Of a stretch of DNA of 64,000 nt, positions 10,685 to 37,427 are shown piece by piece (position 1 is the first letter of the stretch; each line of letters opens with the position of its first letter). The position numbers and the translations under genes are program-made. The stretch lies in NCBI GenBank assembly GCA_903863255.1, contig CAIPBJ010000091.1, forward strand, positions 1 through 64,000, read 5' to 3'. The stretch is from an uncultured Methylophilaceae bacterium (GTDB lineage: Bacteria > Pseudomonadota > Gammaproteobacteria > Burkholderiales > Methylophilaceae). The notes beneath the pieces are model-generated. The model saw only the letters and a list, made by a program, of their open reading frames with translations. It was not told the origin of the DNA and made no database searches.

Positions 10685-11485
10685 TTAAAACATATCCCAG
10701 AATTTCCACCAATCCCGGTGTTCTTTTGGAGCGTCGTTACGTAAGAATTTGCTATTTGGATAATTCTTATTCAGTACTCGCAATGTATCCTGTTTTAGAT
10801 CTTCTAACCCTAGTAAATCGTAGGCACTTACCATGATCACCAGTGCCTCTTCAACGCTAGTCGAATTTGGGTAGTTTTCAAGAACATATTTACAACGATT
10901 TACAGCCGCAACATATGCTGTTCTTTTCATGTAGTATCTAGCAACATGAAGTTCATGGCTTGCCAATGTGTCAACGAGATAGGTCATTCTAAGGGTGGCA
11001 TCTTTGACATATCGACTATCTGGATACCTTGTAACGAGCTCTTTGAAAGCAAGAAAGGATGAAGAAAGTGTTTTTGGGTCCCTGTCATCGATATTTTGTT
11101 TTGTTAGTTTTTCGATGATTCCACGCTCGTTAAACGTCGCTAGTCCACGCATGTAATAGGCATAATCTACATTTGGGTGGTTGGGATGCAATTTAATAAA
11201 ACGCTCGGCAGCTGCAAGACATGAAGTTGAGTCACTTCTTTTGTAGTAGGCATAAATTGTTTCTAGCTCTGATTGAGCTGCAAATTTGCCATGAGGATAA
11301 CGCGATTCGATGATCTGGAAATATTTAACGGCCTTTTCATAATCGCCATTTTGCATTCTTTCTTCAGCAGTTGAATAAATGTGTTCTGCAGTCCACCCTT
11401 TCGTTTCATCAATTTCAGTGGGACTGCCAAAAATACTGCAACCAGTGATCCAGAGTATTAAAATTAACGATAAACTATGCTTCAT
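10685..11485 (-). CDS. bamD: Outer-membrane protein assembly lipoprotein BamD
   Basis: An essential BAM lipoprotein made of TPR-like helices (266 residues). From ATG 11485 the N-terminus is a lipoprotein signal with lipobox ITGCS. It is followed by the family's W..E.IYSTAEERMQNGDYEKAVKYF and ESRYPHGKFAAQSELE blocks. The open frame extends 16 codons further upstream to 11533. That extension would bury the signal peptide and overlap rluD, so it is rejected. It is divergent from rluD with only 41 bases between the start codons, so the two promoters must overlap. Convergent with der. Confidence 0.93.
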   Translation of the reverse strand: MKHSLSLILILWITGCSIFGSPTEIDETKGWTAEHIYSTAEERMQNGDYEKAVKYFQIIESRYPHGKFAAQSELETIYAYYKRSDSTSCLAAAERFIKLHPNHPNVDYAYYMRGLATFNERGIIEKLTKQNIDDRDPKTLSSSFLAFKELVTRYPDSRYVKDATLRMTYLVDTLASHELHVARYYMKRTAYVAAVNRCKYVLENYPNSTSVEEALVIMVSAYDLLGLEDLKQDTLRVLNKNYPNSKFLRNDAPKEHRDWWKFWDMF

Positions 11486-11526
11486 TCGAGAGTCCAAATA
11501 AATAAAATTTTTATAGATTATAACTG

Positions 11527-12582
11527 ATGACACAAATCACTCCTATCACTCTCATTATCCCACAAGATTTAGGTGGTATGCGTTTAGATCAAGCATTACA
11601 GAAGTTGATGCCTGAATATTCTAGATCGCGACTTCAATCCTGGATCAAAGACGGCTCAGTTAAGCTTGAAAATCATATCGCTACGCCAAAGACCAAAGTT
11701 TGGGGCGGTGAAAATTTGCAAATAATTATGCAAGCCAATCCTGAGGAGTCTTCTTTCAAGCCCCAGGACATTCCATTGGATATTATCCATGAGGATGATC
11801 AGATTGTGGTGATTAATAAGTCACCAGGGATCGTCGTGCATCCTGCGGCAGGGAATTGGGAAGGGACGATGTTGAATGGTATCTTGTACCATTTTCCTAA
11901 TGCAAAAGACCTTCCCCGTGCTGGGATTGTACATCGTCTAGATAAAGATACGAGCGGATTGATGGTGGTTGCGAAGACGCTATCGGCTCAAACTAGCTTG
12001 GTTAGGCAGCTTCAGGCCAGAACAGTGAAGAGAGAATACCGTGCAATCGTTTGGGGACAAGTCTGGCAAAACGGTACAATCGATCAACCCATTGGCCGCG
12101 ACTCTCGTTCAAGAACAAAAATGGCTGTCAATAGAATGGGTAAGCCAGCAATAACAAGATATGAAGTGTTGGAGCGTTTTGCAGTACATACCTATTTAAG
12201 GTGCAATTTGGAAACGGGTCGAACACACCAGATTCGGGTTCATATGCAGCATCTAAAGGCCCCCTTAGTAGGAGATCCTCTTTACGGAATGAGGGGTATT
12301 ATTCCACTACGCATTATGAATCAGGATTTGGTTGATGCAGTTCAGAATTTCCCCAGGCAGGCTTTACATGCCATTAAATTGGGTTTGATTCATCCAGCTA
12401 CGAATCAACCCATGGAATGGCAAATCGATTTGGCTGATGATATGAAATCGTTATTGGAAGCCATGAGACTGATTCAACCAGAAGATATCGGGGAATCATT
12501 CGATTTTGATTATTCCGAAGGTGTTCCCATCGAATTCGATGATGAAGATTCAGAATTTGATGAAGATGATGAACAAGAATAA
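11527..12582 (+). CDS. rluD: 23S rRNA pseudouridine synthase RluD
   Basis: Makes pseudouridines 1911, 1915 and 1917 in helix 69 of 23S rRNA (E. coli numbering). An N-terminal S4-like RNA-binding domain (about 15-75, RLDQALQKLMPEYSRSRLQSW) is followed by the RluA-family catalytic domain with HRLDKDTSGL. The catalytic Asp is at residue 139, the same number as in E. coli RluD. A long acidic tail, mostly Asp and Glu, closes the 351-residue protein. The bamD-rluD-pgeF arrangement is widely conserved. The last 14 bases overlap the pgeF start. Confidence 0.94.
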   Translation: MTQITPITLIIPQDLGGMRLDQALQKLMPEYSRSRLQSWIKDGSVKLENHIATPKTKVWGGENLQIIMQANPEESSFKPQDIPLDIIHEDDQIVVINKSPGIVVHPAAGNWEGTMLNGILYHFPNAKDLPRAGIVHRLDKDTSGLMVVAKTLSAQTSLVRQLQARTVKREYRAIVWGQVWQNGTIDQPIGRDSRSRTKMAVNRMGKPAITRYEVLERFAVHTYLRCNLETGRTHQIRVHMQHLKAPLVGDPLYGMRGIIPLRIMNQDLVDAVQNFPRQALHAIKLGLIHPATNQPMEWQIDLADDMKSLLEAMRLIQPEDIGESFDFDYSEGVPIEFDDEDSEFDEDDEQE

Positions 12583-13306
12583 TCTGATTTTTCCTTCTTG
12601 GCCTGCGCCAAGATCAATCCATGCCATTCAGACCACACGAAACGGAGGAGTAAGCGATGGGCCTTATGCTAGCTTGAATCTTGCTGGGCATGTTGGCGAT
12701 GCGACTAAAAGTATAAGAATGAACCGTGAAATGTTGAGGTCATTTTTACCAAGTGATCCTGTCTGGTTGAAACAGACTCACAGTTCTATATGTATAAATG
12801 CATTTGAAGCAGGCATTAATGTCGAGGCCGATGCTTCATTTACAAATTCAATGAATGTGGTTTGTGTCGTGATGACGGCGGATTGTCTGCCGGTTTTATT
12901 ATGCAGCCGCTTGGGCAACGAGGTGGCTGCAATTCATGCTGGTTGGAAGGGGCTTTTAAATGGTGTAATCGAGTCTACTATTAATCAAATGCAAACCAAC
13001 CCATCAAATTTGTTAGCTTGGCTTGGACCTGCAATTGGACCTCAATCTTTTGAAGTCGGTAATGATGTTAGGGATGCATACATCGAACTTGATTCGGGCG
13101 CTAAAGCGGCATTTGTTGAATTTTCGGAAAATAAATGGTTGGCTGATCTTTATAAGTTGGCAACGATTCGATTGCGCGCTAAGGGTATTAGCCAGATCTA
13201 TGGGGGTGAATATTGCACGTTTAAAGATAAGGAGCATTTTTTCTCATATAGACGAGAAGGGAATACCGGACGTATGGCAAGTTTGATTTGGATAGGAAAT
13301 GATTGA
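12569..13306 (+). CDS. pgeF: Peptidoglycan editing factor PgeF (YfiH/DUF152 family)
   Basis: Multicopper-oxidase-like fold family acting in peptidoglycan quality control by removing wrongly incorporated amino acids from muropeptides. Seen are TTRNGGVSDGPYASLNL, the metal/active-site histidine in LKQTHSS, TADCLPVLL, and AAIHAGWKGLLNG with the second conserved histidine. The start is placed at ATG 12569, though an adjacent in-frame ATG at 12566 is equally possible. Longer readings back to 12506 lie inside rluD and add non-family sequence. The resulting length of 245 is typical. It is translationally coupled to rluD. Confidence 0.92.
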   Translation: MNKNNLIFPSWPAPRSIHAIQTTRNGGVSDGPYASLNLAGHVGDATKSIRMNREMLRSFLPSDPVWLKQTHSSICINAFEAGINVEADASFTNSMNVVCVVMTADCLPVLLCSRLGNEVAAIHAGWKGLLNGVIESTINQMQTNPSNLLAWLGPAIGPQSFEVGNDVRDAYIELDSGAKAAFVEFSENKWLADLYKLATIRLRAKGISQIYGGEYCTFKDKEHFFSYRREGNTGRMASLIWIGND

Positions 13307-30311: not shown

Positions 30312-32823
<2,512 letters not shown>

Positions 32824-32824
32824 A

Positions 32825-33373
32825 TTGAAAAAAAACAACAACAAACGTTTTGCTTGGGCTATAACCGGATCGGGCCATTTTTTAAAGGAATCCATTGAAA
32901 TCATCAACAAGATTGATGATGTCGACTTGTTCCTTAGTAAAGCAGCCTATGAGATTCTTCAGCAGTATGGATATAAGCACGGTATAGGTCGTGTATTCCA
33001 AGATAAGACAGCAAGTTCGGTTCCAGTTGAGCTCTTTTATACTGGATCTTATCACACGCTAGTTGTTGCCCCTGCATCTTCAAATACGGTAGCCAAGATG
33101 GTATGTGGGATATCTGATAATTTGGTAACAAACATTTATGCACAGGCAGGTAAATGTAGGGTGCCTAGTATTGTTTTTGCCTGTGATACCGATCCAGTTG
33201 TTGAGTCAGAAGCACCTCGTGAGAATATTGTAAAAGTCTACCCTCGTAAAATTGATCTTGAAAATATTGAAAAATTAAAAATGTTTGAAGAGACAACCGT
33301 GGTAGCGAATATGCAGTTATTGGAATCCGCAATACAGGCTAGATTAGAGTGTCTGAAAGCCTTCTCTTCTTAA
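32825..33373 (+). CDS. Flavoprotein of the AfpA/DmrB type, probably for tetrahydromethanopterin biosynthesis
   Basis: 182-residue flavoprotein-superfamily protein. Seen are the FMN-binding start WAITGSGHFLKES, VVAPASSNTVAKMVCGISDNLVTNIYAQAGK and the end of the core PSIVFACDTDP. Such proteins occur in archaea and in H4MPT-using methylotrophs, where they are named AfpA or resemble dihydromethanopterin reductase. This assignment is family knowledge plus context. The start is TTG 32825 with GGTAAG just upstream; the open frame reaches back into purA, but that part is not family sequence. Its last 25 bases overlap the next gene. Confidence 0.78.
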   Translation: MKKNNNKRFAWAITGSGHFLKESIEIINKIDDVDLFLSKAAYEILQQYGYKHGIGRVFQDKTASSVPVELFYTGSYHTLVVAPASSNTVAKMVCGISDNLVTNIYAQAGKCRVPSIVFACDTDPVVESEAPRENIVKVYPRKIDLENIEKLKMFEETTVVANMQLLESAIQARLECLKAFSS

Positions 33374-34755
33374 CTGGAAAGCTAGCTGAAAAGAGCTTGC
33401 TTAAAGTTTTGGCTAGTATGGAACCCACTGAGTTTACCTACCGGGTAGAACAAATCGGCATAACCGTAGCGGCACTGATGACTCCAGAAATGATTGCCCG
33501 TAGAGTAAGCGATATCGGAAATGCAGACAAAATAATTGTGCCAGGCTTGTGCAGAGGGGATTTAAGCCTGTTGGAACAAAAATATGGTATTCCTGTATTG
33601 CGGGGTCCGGAAGATTTAAAAGATATTCCACAATTCTTCGGTAAAAAGAAAAGTGATCATGATTTATCCAGATACAGAACTAGAATATTTGCTGAAATCG
33701 TCGATGCGCCATTTCTTCGACCAACGCAAATTTTAGCCAGGTCGGAGTTATTTCGATCACAAGGCGCAAATGTGATTGATTTGGGATGTCTACCCAACAC
33801 ACCATTCCCGCATCTTTCAGAAACCATTCAAACTCTTAAGAAATCAGGATTCAAAGTCAGCGTTGATTCATTAAATGTAGACGAATTGATAGTTGCAGGA
33901 AGTTCAGGAGCTGATTATCTATTGAGCTTGACTGAAAAAACATTGTGGGTGGCTGATGAAGTGCCATCTACGCCAGTACTTATTCCAAGTAAATCTGGCA
34001 ACTTATCCTCTTTGTACCGGGCTATTGATATCATGAAGTCTAAGAGCAAGCAATTTATTGCTGATCCAATCTTAGATCCTATCCCTTTTGGGTTTGTTGA
34101 ATCAATCCACAGATATCGCTGCTTAAGAAAGCGCTATCCAGATGTGGATATAATGATGGGCATTGGAAACATCACTGAGCTTGTGGATGCTGATACGTCT
34201 GGAATCAATGCATTGCTTTTTGGAATGATTGCAGAATTGGATATTGATTTTGTTTTAACCACATCAGTAAGTTCTCATGCCATCAATGCTGTTTCCGAGG
34301 CGGATTTAGCCAGAAGGATGATGTTTGCTGCTAAGGAAGATTCAAGGCTGCCAAGGGATTACAGCAATGGCTTACTTGTTCATCATGACAAACGACCTTT
34401 TCCATACAGTGAAGACGAGATAAAGGATTTTGCTAGTCAAGTCAAAGATCCAAGTTTTCGTATACAAGTAAGCGATAATGGTTTTTACATCTATAACCGG
34501 GATGGGATATCCCATGCAATTGATCCTTTTGAGGTTTACTCGAAATTGGAAGTTGACGATGATGCTTCCCATGCCTTTTATTTAGGCGTTGAATTGGCTC
34601 GAGCCCAAATTGCTTGGCAATTGAAGAAAAGATACACACAGGACGAAGAGTTGACTTGGGGTAGCAGTTCGCCAATACAGGATAAAAACATCCTTAAATC
34701 ACACAGGTCGGCGTCACTAAAAGAAAAAAATCAGAAGGATAATCCGAAGAAATAG
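33349..34755 (+). CDS. DHPS-like DUF6513 protein of the H4MPT/methanofuran cluster
   Basis: 468 residues. It starts SLLFLTGKLAEKSLLKVL, the usual start of this archaeal/methylotroph family. A middle barrel resembles dihydropteroate synthase, with GCLPNTPFPHLSETIQTL, ADPILDPIPFGFVES, PDVDIMMGIGNITELVDADTSG and FVLTTSVSSHA. The C-terminus has SFRIQVSDNGFYIYNRDGISHAIDPFEVYSKL. The family occurs with H4MPT genes and is thought to act in pterin assembly; the exact step is not established by this sequence. GTG 33349 overlaps the flavoprotein gene by 25 bases, so the two are probably translationally coupled. Confidence 0.8.
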   Translation: MSESLLFLTGKLAEKSLLKVLASMEPTEFTYRVEQIGITVAALMTPEMIARRVSDIGNADKIIVPGLCRGDLSLLEQKYGIPVLRGPEDLKDIPQFFGKKKSDHDLSRYRTRIFAEIVDAPFLRPTQILARSELFRSQGANVIDLGCLPNTPFPHLSETIQTLKKSGFKVSVDSLNVDELIVAGSSGADYLLSLTEKTLWVADEVPSTPVLIPSKSGNLSSLYRAIDIMKSKSKQFIADPILDPIPFGFVESIHRYRCLRKRYPDVDIMMGIGNITELVDADTSGINALLFGMIAELDIDFVLTTSVSSHAINAVSEADLARRMMFAAKEDSRLPRDYSNGLLVHHDKRPFPYSEDEIKDFASQVKDPSFRIQVSDNGFYIYNRDGISHAIDPFEVYSKLEVDDDASHAFYLGVELARAQIAWQLKKRYTQDEELTWGSSSPIQDKNILKSHRSASLKEKNQKDNPKK

Positions 34756-34909
34756 ATCGATACAAAAGAGAATAGCGTTCCTGAACGCATGAGGTTACGT
34801 CGAAGTGGAATTCATTAAAAAAACAAAATGATTAGGCTATGCAATTTTTGTAATCTACAACATATAACGGATACACTGAATTCCTAACCATTCATTCAAA
34901 AAATAAGTG

Positions 34910-35509
34910 ATGCATTTAAATAAACAAAAACCTAAGATTTTCGAAACAATCGTGACCACTGTAGATTTGGACGGTCATGCTCATTTGGCACCATTTGGTG
35001 TTCGTGAGCAGGATGATTTGATCTTGATATCGCCCTTCAGGCCATCTGCCAGTCTGGATAACTTTCTATTAACAAAGACGGCAGTAATCAATTTAACTGA
35101 TGATGTAAGGGTTTTTGCAGGTGCTTTAACAGGTCGAAGGGACTGGTCTTTATCAAAGGCAATAAAGGTTAATGGGGTTTTCCTGGATTCGGCTTTGTGT
35201 CATCGTGAGTTGAGTTTGGTTGATCTAAAAGATAATGAAATCAGACCTGAATTTTTATTTAAGGTTGTACATGAGGAAATTCATTCTGCATTCAAAGGAT
35301 TTAATCGAGCTCAAGCTGCTGTAATTGAGCTGTCAGTTTTAGTTAGTCGTCTGAATATATTGCCAATTGAGAAAATCGAAACTGAGATGGATTACCTTAA
35401 AATTGCGATTGAAAAAACGGCAGGTGAACGAGAATACGAGGCATGGACTTGGTTGGTAGAAAAAATTCAGAACCATAAGGCTGAAATTTCAGGAGAAAAT
35501 CAAGCGTGA
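34910..35509 (+). CDS. DUF447 family protein of the H4MPT cluster
   Basis: 199 residues. The N-terminal FETIVTTVDLDGHAHLAPFGVREQDD resembles flavin-reductase-like split-barrel proteins, and the rest matches DUF447 (RPSASLDNFLLTKTAVINLTDDVRVFAGAL; FKGFNRAQAAVIELSVLVSRLNILP). The family is found with H4MPT genes in methanogens and methylotrophs; its role is unknown to me, possibly FMN-linked. The start is ATG 34910 (GTG 34907 also fits); no clear Shine-Dalgarno is present. It lies 154 bases after the DUF6513 gene and overlaps mfnB by 4 bases. Confidence 0.8.
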   Translation: MHLNKQKPKIFETIVTTVDLDGHAHLAPFGVREQDDLILISPFRPSASLDNFLLTKTAVINLTDDVRVFAGALTGRRDWSLSKAIKVNGVFLDSALCHRELSLVDLKDNEIRPEFLFKVVHEEIHSAFKGFNRAQAAVIELSVLVSRLNILPIEKIETEMDYLKIAIEKTAGEREYEAWTWLVEKIQNHKAEISGENQA

Positions 35510-36216
35510 CGAAGTTGTTAGTAAGTGTAATGAATGTGGAGGAAGCGGTTTGCGTTTTAGAGGCTGAGGCCGATATCGTTGACCTGAAAAACCCTATCGG
35601 AGGCGCACTGGGTGCTTTGCCTGCTGATACCGTTCTTGAAATCGTGAATGCAATAAAAGGGAGAAGACAAATCAGCGCAACCATTGGCGATATTCCAATG
35701 ATAGCCAGTGAAATTGTTCATGCGGTTAAAAAAATGGCTGCAGTAGGCGTCGATATCGTAAAAATTGGTTTTTTTGGTCATGAGCGTCACGAAGAATGCA
35801 TCGATGCACTTAAACCCATTATTAATTCAGGTGTGCGCATCGTTGCAGTGCTCTTTTCAGATCAGCATCCTAATTTTGACATCGTGACTCAATTATCTTG
35901 TGCGGGCTTTTACGGCGTCATGCTTGACACCCAGGAAAAAACTAAAGGCCATTTATTGGATCACTTCACATTAATGCAACTTAACGATTTTATTATGTCT
36001 TCCAGGTCTGTTGATTTGAAAGTCGGACTGGCAGGATCTTTAAGGATAGAACATGTTGAGGATTTGGCTGATCTGAATCCAGATTTTCTAGGATTCAGGG
36101 GTGCACTCTGCGAAAAAAACAATCGAATTTTAGACCTTGACACGAATAAGCTAAAAGCGATTAAAGAGGTGTTGCATAAATGCAACAATTCGGTCTTGGA
36201 AGTTGATAGATGCTAA
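35506..36216 (+). CDS. mfnB: (5-formylfuran-3-yl)methyl phosphate synthase (DUF556)
   Basis: Condenses two triose phosphates into the furan precursor of methanofuran (methylofuran in methylotrophs). At 236 residues it has the family start LLVSVMNVEEAVCVLEAEADIVDLKNPIGGALGA. K28 (DLKNP) and K86 (DIVKIGFFG) sit where the Methanocaldococcus enzyme has its two active-site lysines (recalled as 27 and 85). D141 (MLDTQ) is a candidate for the conserved Asp. Start GTG 35506 overlaps the DUF447 stop. Together with the three genes before it, this implies formaldehyde oxidation by the H4MPT pathway. Confidence 0.88.
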   Translation: MTKLLVSVMNVEEAVCVLEAEADIVDLKNPIGGALGALPADTVLEIVNAIKGRRQISATIGDIPMIASEIVHAVKKMAAVGVDIVKIGFFGHERHEECIDALKPIINSGVRIVAVLFSDQHPNFDIVTQLSCAGFYGVMLDTQEKTKGHLLDHFTLMQLNDFIMSSRSVDLKVGLAGSLRIEHVEDLADLNPDFLGFRGALCEKNNRILDLDTNKLKAIKEVLHKCNNSVLEVDRC

Positions 36217-36293: not shown

Positions 36294-37427
36294 ATGAATA
36301 AAAGTCTCATTAAATTAGCTTTGCTAAGTTCTTTAGCGGTGGTTTCAGTTAACGCTTCTGCTGAGGATGCGTATACCGGTGCATGGTATGTGTTGCCAGG
36401 TGTAGCAGGCCTTGTCCACACAGATAGTTGGTTGGACGCTGATAAGACTGGGATAGGTGGTTTTCTTAGAGGCGGCAAGGAAATAAGTGAGCATTGGGAT
36501 GTTCAATTTGGTGCCAGTTACGCAGAAGCAGATCAGAATGCGAAAATAGTGGGTCTAACCGGAAAGTACAAGCAAACGCTTTTGGGTGTTGATGCGCTTT
36601 ATATGTTTAGCCGTGATAGTTTCAGGCCTTTTGTTCTTGCCGGTGTCGGTGCAGCTTACAATGACGTTGCGTATTCCTATCCAAATGTAAACATTGATGG
36701 CGGACATACATCATGGATGGCAAACGTTGGTGTTGGCGCTCAATATCTATTTAACGATTCATTGGGTTTGCAAGTTGATTTACGTCAAGTCTTCAGTCGT
36801 GCTGAAGCTAATGCCACGATTCCGGTCAGTGGGCTATCTGCTCATGACAGTTCAACAATTAGTAATACCTATTTAAATGTGGGTGGTATTTTCCGTTTTG
36901 GAGCACCGAAGCCAGTTGCTATTGCAGAACCGATGCCTGAACCAACTCCAGCTCCTGCTCCAGAGCCAGTCGTGGCTCCAGAACCAGCTCCTGCTCCCGC
37001 GCCTGAGCCAGTTGCTGCACCTGAGCCATGCAAGCCAACCTTTGAAACGATTACCGTTTCTGCTCAGAAGCTATTCGGATTCGATAAGGCTCACCTGAAA
37101 GCTGAAGGTAAACAAGAATTGGATGATGCTGCTGAGAAATTGATAGCAAATCCTGATTTGGACATGGTTTTAGTGACTGGTTACACAGATAGAATAGGTG
37201 ATGCAAAGTACAATCTTAAACTTTCTGAGCGCAGAGCTAAGCAAGTTAAGGATTATTTAGTTTCCAAAGGTGTTGATGCTGGCCGCTTAACAGCAGTAGG
37301 CAAAGGTAAAGATGACCCTGTCGTGGAATGTAAGGGTATTAAAGGTAAGAAGTTGATCGAATGTTTGGCTCCGAATAGAAGAGTGACAATAACATCTGAG
37401 AAACAACGCGAAAATGCCTGCCAATAG
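36294..37427 (+). CDS. OmpA-family outer-membrane protein
   Basis: 377 residues: signal peptide cleaved near residue 23 (VNASA), an eight-stranded OmpA-like beta-barrel (about 24-200), a Pro/Ala/Glu-rich linker at about 205-245, then an OmpA_C peptidoglycan-binding domain. That domain has VTGYTDRIGDAKYNLKLSERRAKQVKDYL and APNRRVTIT. The conserved D and R that bind diaminopimelate appear in TDR and NRRV. The ECKGIKGKKLIECL segment holds a probable disulfide pair, typical of beta/gamma OmpA. It has its own promoter and a strong terminator, so it is probably abundant. Confidence 0.92.
   Translation: MNKSLIKLALLSSLAVVSVNASAEDAYTGAWYVLPGVAGLVHTDSWLDADKTGIGGFLRGGKEISEHWDVQFGASYAEADQNAKIVGLTGKYKQTLLGVDALYMFSRDSFRPFVLAGVGAAYNDVAYSYPNVNIDGGHTSWMANVGVGAQYLFNDSLGLQVDLRQVFSRAEANATIPVSGLSAHDSSTISNTYLNVGGIFRFGAPKPVAIAEPMPEPTPAPAPEPVVAPEPAPAPAPEPVAAPEPCKPTFETITVSAQKLFGFDKAHLKAEGKQELDDAAEKLIANPDLDMVLVTGYTDRIGDAKYNLKLSERRAKQVKDYLVSKGVDAGRLTAVGKGKDDPVVECKGIKGKKLIECLAPNRRVTITSEKQRENACQ

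Follow-up and report, generated by a model that had tools for sequence, protein, structure and literature searches.

A four-gene block behind purA in a Methylophilaceae genome, predicted to be a segment of the known H4MPT/methylofuran biosynthesis island

The genome of an uncultured Methylophilaceae bacterium (assembly GCA_903863255.1) carries, behind purA, a block of four genes, afpA/dmrB-orf19-orf20-orf22 (mfnB), which, judging from protein families and gene order, is almost certainly a segment of the proteobacterial island for the biosynthesis of tetrahydromethanopterin (H4MPT) and methylofuran. The block lies in the window analyzed here, i.e., the first 64,000 nucleotides of contig CAIPBJ010000091.1, and is real, correctly read and already known. 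Its features and immediate neighbors are the following:

31501-32823, forward strand: purA, context gene at the end of hflX-hflK-hflC-hisZ-purA (open reading frame; order kept in relatives)
32825-33373, forward strand: afpA/dmrB, flavoprotein gene, TTG start (Pfam Flavoprotein, 7e-22; match to 3WIS/4MWG)
33349-34755, forward strand: orf19, DUF6513/TIGR00284 protein (PF20123, 8e-39; TIGR00284, 8e-61, under its cut-off)
34756-34909, no strand: orf19-orf20 gap of about 150 bases (gap table of relatives; DNA search of the own genome)
34910-35509, forward strand: orf20, predicted DUF447 FMN-binding split-barrel protein (PF04289 and PF20766; structure model; solved DUF447 proteins)
35506-36216, forward strand: mfnB/orf22 (PF04476, 8e-69; match to MJ1099, 4RC1/4U9P)
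36294-37427, forward strand: ompA-like gene, downstream neighbor outside the pathway (open reading frame; order kept in relatives)

All four open reading frames are intact, adjacent and co-directional, the arrangement by which the proteobacterial island is recognized, and their position one base after purA, as described in the first-pass annotation, was recovered at the same coordinates. The possible TTG start of afpA at 32825 is one base past the purA stop at 32823, with a GTG at 32783, within purA, as an alternative; orf20 starts at the ATG at 34910, or possibly at a GTG at 34907. The afpA and orf19 frames overlap by 25 bases (33349-33373) and those of orf20 and mfnB by 4 bases (35506-35509), from which a stepwise or complexed action of the products had been proposed. 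This proposal finds no support, since the overlap lengths vary among relatives, some having 25 bases, others 4 and still others a small gap; the overlaps therefore indicate at most translational coupling and not a complex.

The orf19 and orf20 frames do not overlap and stand about 150 bases apart, a detail absent from the first-pass annotation. In most relatives this junction is a few-base overlap (most often 4 bases) or a short gap, and in a few Methylotenera-type loci a gap of about 60-110 bases. An inserted repeat was ruled out as an explanation, because the gap sequence is single copy and matched itself alone in a DNA search of the genome. At 34775-34788 the gap also includes a small hairpin with a perfect stem, GCGTT-CCTG-AACGC. 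When the block was scanned for promoters and terminators, 5 promoter-like sites were found against a mean of 10.3 in shuffles, hence there is no evidence of an internal promoter.

The families first proposed for the four genes were borne out by profile search, in which every protein scored above the Pfam cut-off of its named family and none was assigned to an unrelated one. MfnB aligns along its full length with MJ1099 (E 1.8e-22 over 219 residues), and in that alignment the DxKNP and LDTxxK stretches both retain their lysines. By homology to this solved enzyme, the product is predicted to be (5-formylfuran-3-yl)methyl phosphate synthase (4-HFC-P synthase; the family of PF04476, 4HFCP_synth), which would make the furan precursor in the first step toward the furan of methylofuran. 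AfpA aligns with the solved Burkholderia DmrB/AfpA (3WIS, 4MWG) across nearly its whole length (residues 6-177, E 8.7e-51), differing from it by ordinary sequence divergence only. AfpA/DmrB is treated as dihydromethanopterin reductase, with the attribution of the Burkholderia DmrB structure (PMC6193120), and the window protein is probably the same enzyme, with a predicted activity of reducing dihydromethanopterin to H4MPT in the last step of H4MPT synthesis.

These four gene families were listed as "orf22, 19, 20, afp" among the H4MPT genes of Methylophilaceae, the same bacterial family, by Beck et al. 2014 (PMC4109929), together with fhcABCD, mptG, mtdB, orfY, mch, orf5, 7, 17, 1, 9 and pabB, whose counterparts here are on another contig of the genome, C77. 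There is no difference in kind between the two sets, and the purA linkage is not described in the portion of that article consulted. The equivalence of orf19 and orf20 with DUF6513 and DUF447 is drawn from matching lists and gene order, not from sequences of the original strains. In addition, Orf22 has been equated with MfnB, Orf21 with MfnE, Orf9 with MfnF, Orf5 with MyfB and OrfY with MyfA (PMC8141765). Compared with its presentation in the first-pass annotation, the finding is therefore less novel, since the block as such and the identity of MfnB were already in the literature.

In Methylosinus trichosporium (PMC3615186) the members of the cluster are the same but the order is orf19-orf20-afpA-orf21-orf22, with orf21 (mfnE) inside the cluster, whereas mfnE is on C77 here. 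On plasmid pAZKH of Azoarcus sp. KH32C (NC_020548; locus L193) the flavoprotein-DUF6513-DUF447-mfnB order is identical, but the block is contiguous with counterparts of mch, orf5, orf7, fae, mfnE, mfnF and orf17, and the island also includes a PQQ methanol/ethanol dehydrogenase. This plasmid, typed as mobilizable, thus carries a contiguous H4MPT/methylofuran island. DUF447 matches were found in 37 plasmid records in all; on pTs485 of Thiodictyon syntrophicum (NZ_CP020372; locus L194) the four-gene block adjoins formate dehydrogenase genes and has an orf19-orf20 gap of about 230 bases, resembling that of the window.

Gene order was compared with that of Methylophilaceae and Methylococcales, as suggested in the first-pass annotation. 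Within the limits of each contig, every one of the 33 named Methylophilaceae loci has the order hflX-hflK-hflC-hisZ-purA-afpA-orf19-orf20-orf22-ompA, and the block order behind purA was also found in 24 of 24 further genomes of the family. Because the order recurs in this way, the four-gene block is not a chance assembly. At all 33 named loci afpA-orf19 is preceded by purA, which is the immediate neighbor in nearly every case (the distance is 827 bases at L143 and 1183 at L128), and the orf20-mfnB pair follows at each of the 30 loci holding both genes. In Methylococcales and in other families of the order, by contrast, the block occurs without purA. The attachment is therefore an old synteny at the family level, and the site behind purA is a family-wide, ordinary feature and not a local oddity, since the block is in the same place in every checked relative that has it. 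In Methylophilaceae, this segment is fixed behind purA and the remaining island (mfnE to fhcC) is elsewhere. By DUF6513 sequence, the nearest named relatives belong to Methylophilaceae (Methylopumilus, Methylotenera, Methylovorus, Methylobacillus and Methylophilus, at 60-71% identity); Methylococcaceae and others come next, at 55-60%. The loci recovered in a contig scan for the block were all from proteobacteria, apart from a few of unclassified bacteria. Among 24 loci of the class with DUF447, mfnB comes directly after in all 24, DUF6513 directly before in 20, and afpA is in reach in 6; the DUF447-mfnB pair can part from afpA-DUF6513 (L152, L029 and L048).

Distribution across genomes ties the two proteins of undefined function to the pathway. 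DUF447 and DUF6513 were detected above cut-off in the same 25 of 185 genomes of the class, and Mch in 25 as well, with the sets differing only by two incomplete genomes (G008 and G070). When only the 162 good genomes are counted, one and the same set of 22 holds DUF447, DUF6513 and Mch; the chance of one such coincidence, if the genomes were drawn independently, is roughly 1e-27 by an arithmetic that ignores shared ancestry. In the sampled class, therefore, both proteins are found only where this cofactor pathway occurs. In the genome set of the family, the only members lacking DUF6513 are four with a size of 1.3-1.4 Mb, in agreement with the published finding that planktonic Methylophilaceae with small genomes have lost the pathway (PMC5020050).

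The absence of H4MPT genes elsewhere in the genome would have argued against the first reading; instead, going by order and profile around mch, C77 carries mfnE, pabB, mfnF, orf17, fae, hxlAB, orf7, orf5/myfB, mch, mtdB, mptG and fhcBADC. Orf17 is HisA/HisF-like, Orf7 CitG-like and Orf5/MyfB a RimK/MptN-like ligase, and the region also encodes an MfnD-like ligase. The second ATP-grasp protein adjoining mch is, by position, probably OrfY/MyfA. The MtdB-like open reading frame, for which there was no NCBIfam hit, was recognized by size and position only. C77 also encodes the ribulose monophosphate (RuMP) genes hxlA and hxlB (hexulose-phosphate synthase and isomerase) and a transaldolase assigned from sequence by eye. 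These findings support the reading that the organism makes H4MPT and methylofuran for formaldehyde oxidation, in which the two cofactors, together with Fae, MtdB, Mch and FhcABCD, would serve the oxidation of formaldehyde to formate. In the methanol-using bacteria of this family the cofactor pair is known to act in formaldehyde detoxification.

XoxF is called core in Methylophilaceae. No XoxF/MxaF-type methanol dehydrogenase was found above cut-off in the genome, which counts against the explanation as regards the source of formaldehyde. Only one long match to the model for PQQ methanol/ethanol dehydrogenases was obtained (contig C27, about 10827-12614; locus L198:811-2598); it scores 434 bits against a cut-off of 480 bits and resembles quinoprotein ethanol dehydrogenases more closely than XoxF. 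The absence of xoxF/mxaF could possibly reflect an assembly gap. The lack of a standard methanol dehydrogenase, together with the loss of the pathway in small-genome members of the family, would fit a block that is a vestige in an organism no longer oxidizing C1 compounds via H4MPT. However, the four block genes are intact, as is the downstream pathway, fae and fhcBADC included, and the RuMP genes are present, which makes a vestige highly improbable.

The fold of Orf19 was modeled with a mean pLDDT of 86 and contains a TIM barrel at residues 108-334. This barrel superimposes on dihydropteroate synthase (DHPS) of S. aureus (1AD1) with Z 21.0 and rmsd 3.0 over 214 residues. The DUF6513 sequence alone gave no significant match in the PDB and the DUF6513 profile only weak DHPS-type matches; hence it was the fold search on the model that settled the predicted fold as a DHPS-related, pterin-binding TIM barrel. 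Orf19 is not a member of the FolP family (PF00809). The genome encodes its own FolP and MetH, and a search of the genome with Pterin_bind (PF00809) at E <= 1 found these two and not the DUF6513 protein. In a by-eye comparison with the own FolP, Orf19 is without the Ser-Arg-Lys and Arg-Val-His motifs, having GxGN and TxVSxH instead, positions that are invariant among 52 homologues; in the same set, the stretches GADVIDxG, VSVDS and DPILDP have aspartates that are fully or almost fully conserved.

DUF6513 is best read as serving a dedicated DHPS-like step of H4MPT synthesis. In this role, Orf19 would probably use a DHPS-like reaction to link the pterin with the ribosyl-aminobenzene that MptG produces. 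Alternatively, Orf19 may bind a pterin without acting as a condensing enzyme, and be nearer in action to methyl-pterin methyltransferases or be a pterin-handling protein. The methyltransferase structure 1F6Y ties with DHPS in the fold search (Z 20.4 vs 21.0), and the invariant GxGN274 resembles, by eye, the Gly-x-Ser-Asn of MetH and not the Ser-Arg-Lys of FolP. Yet, among the organism's own proteins, the DUF6513 profile matches FolP along the barrel (E 3.5e-5) and MetH only poorly (E 0.036), and the H4MPT pathway requires a DHPS-like step for which we know of no other candidate. A non-condensing Orf19 is thus rather unlikely. A literature search on DUF6513 returned no paper.

Orf20 contains both DUF447_N (1e-21) and DUF447_C (3e-18) above their cut-offs, and its model (pLDDT 95) matches the solved DUF447 proteins 3B5M, 2NR4, 2IML and 2PTF, followed by short flavin reductases. 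According to their structure titles, 2NR4, 2IML and 2PTF are FMN-bound. Orf20 is hence modeled as an FMN split barrel, with FMN binding predicted by likeness to solved relatives. Its most likely role, which is offered tentatively, is that of an FMN-dependent reductase in the H4MPT branch, e.g., converting the ribofuranosyl into the ribitol form, a step of H4MPT synthesis that to our knowledge is unassigned.

Two lines of evidence point in different directions on the branch. DUF447 precedes mfnB directly in all 24 loci of the class, in all 30 Methylophilaceae loci with both genes and in 38 of 39 others, and the two genes remain adjacent even at loci where orf19 has a separate position. This tight linkage in bacteria points to the furan branch, in which Orf20 could be, e.g., an FMN enzyme acting on the furan aldehyde made by MfnB; moreover, the transaminase MfnC has no bacterial assignment (PMC8141765). 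In the archaeal control genomes, on the other hand, DUF447 was matched in M. jannaschii, H. volcanii, S. acidocaldarius and M. acetivorans, and MptG in the same four, while Mch was matched in three, and MfnB and DUF6513 in two each. DUF447 thus follows MptG and not MfnB, the latter being unmatched in Haloferax volcanii and Sulfolobus acidocaldarius, which favors the H4MPT branch for Orf20, as a hint and not a proof. On balance, a role in the methylofuran branch appears rather unlikely. No literature placing DUF447 in the H4MPT/methylofuran pathway was found, judged by title or abstract, nor any on MJ0107 and methanopterin, and the consulted portion of the ProPhylo paper does not treat the DUF6513 and DUF447 families.

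Beyond the tentative assignment of Orf20 to the H4MPT branch, a broader and somewhat doubtful proposal pairs DUF447 with MptG in both bacteria and archaea, as the missing FMN-dependent reductase that would take the H4MPT backbone from the ribofuranosyl to the ribitol form; DUF6513 would then be a pterin-joining enzyme of its own, whose site differs from that of FolP. Haloarchaea are held to use folate. If the proposal were true, the haloarchaeal MptG homologue, which has been argued not to make an H4MPT precursor (PMC8305020), might work together with DUF447 in a pathway that is still active. In the Haloferax volcanii control genome, the DUF447, MptG and Mch profiles all match.

For the Methylophilaceae bacterium itself, the analysis confirms that the genome carries the H4MPT/methylofuran formaldehyde route. 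What is added to existing knowledge is a sharper, testable assignment for the DUF6513 and DUF447 proteins, which is a modest question.
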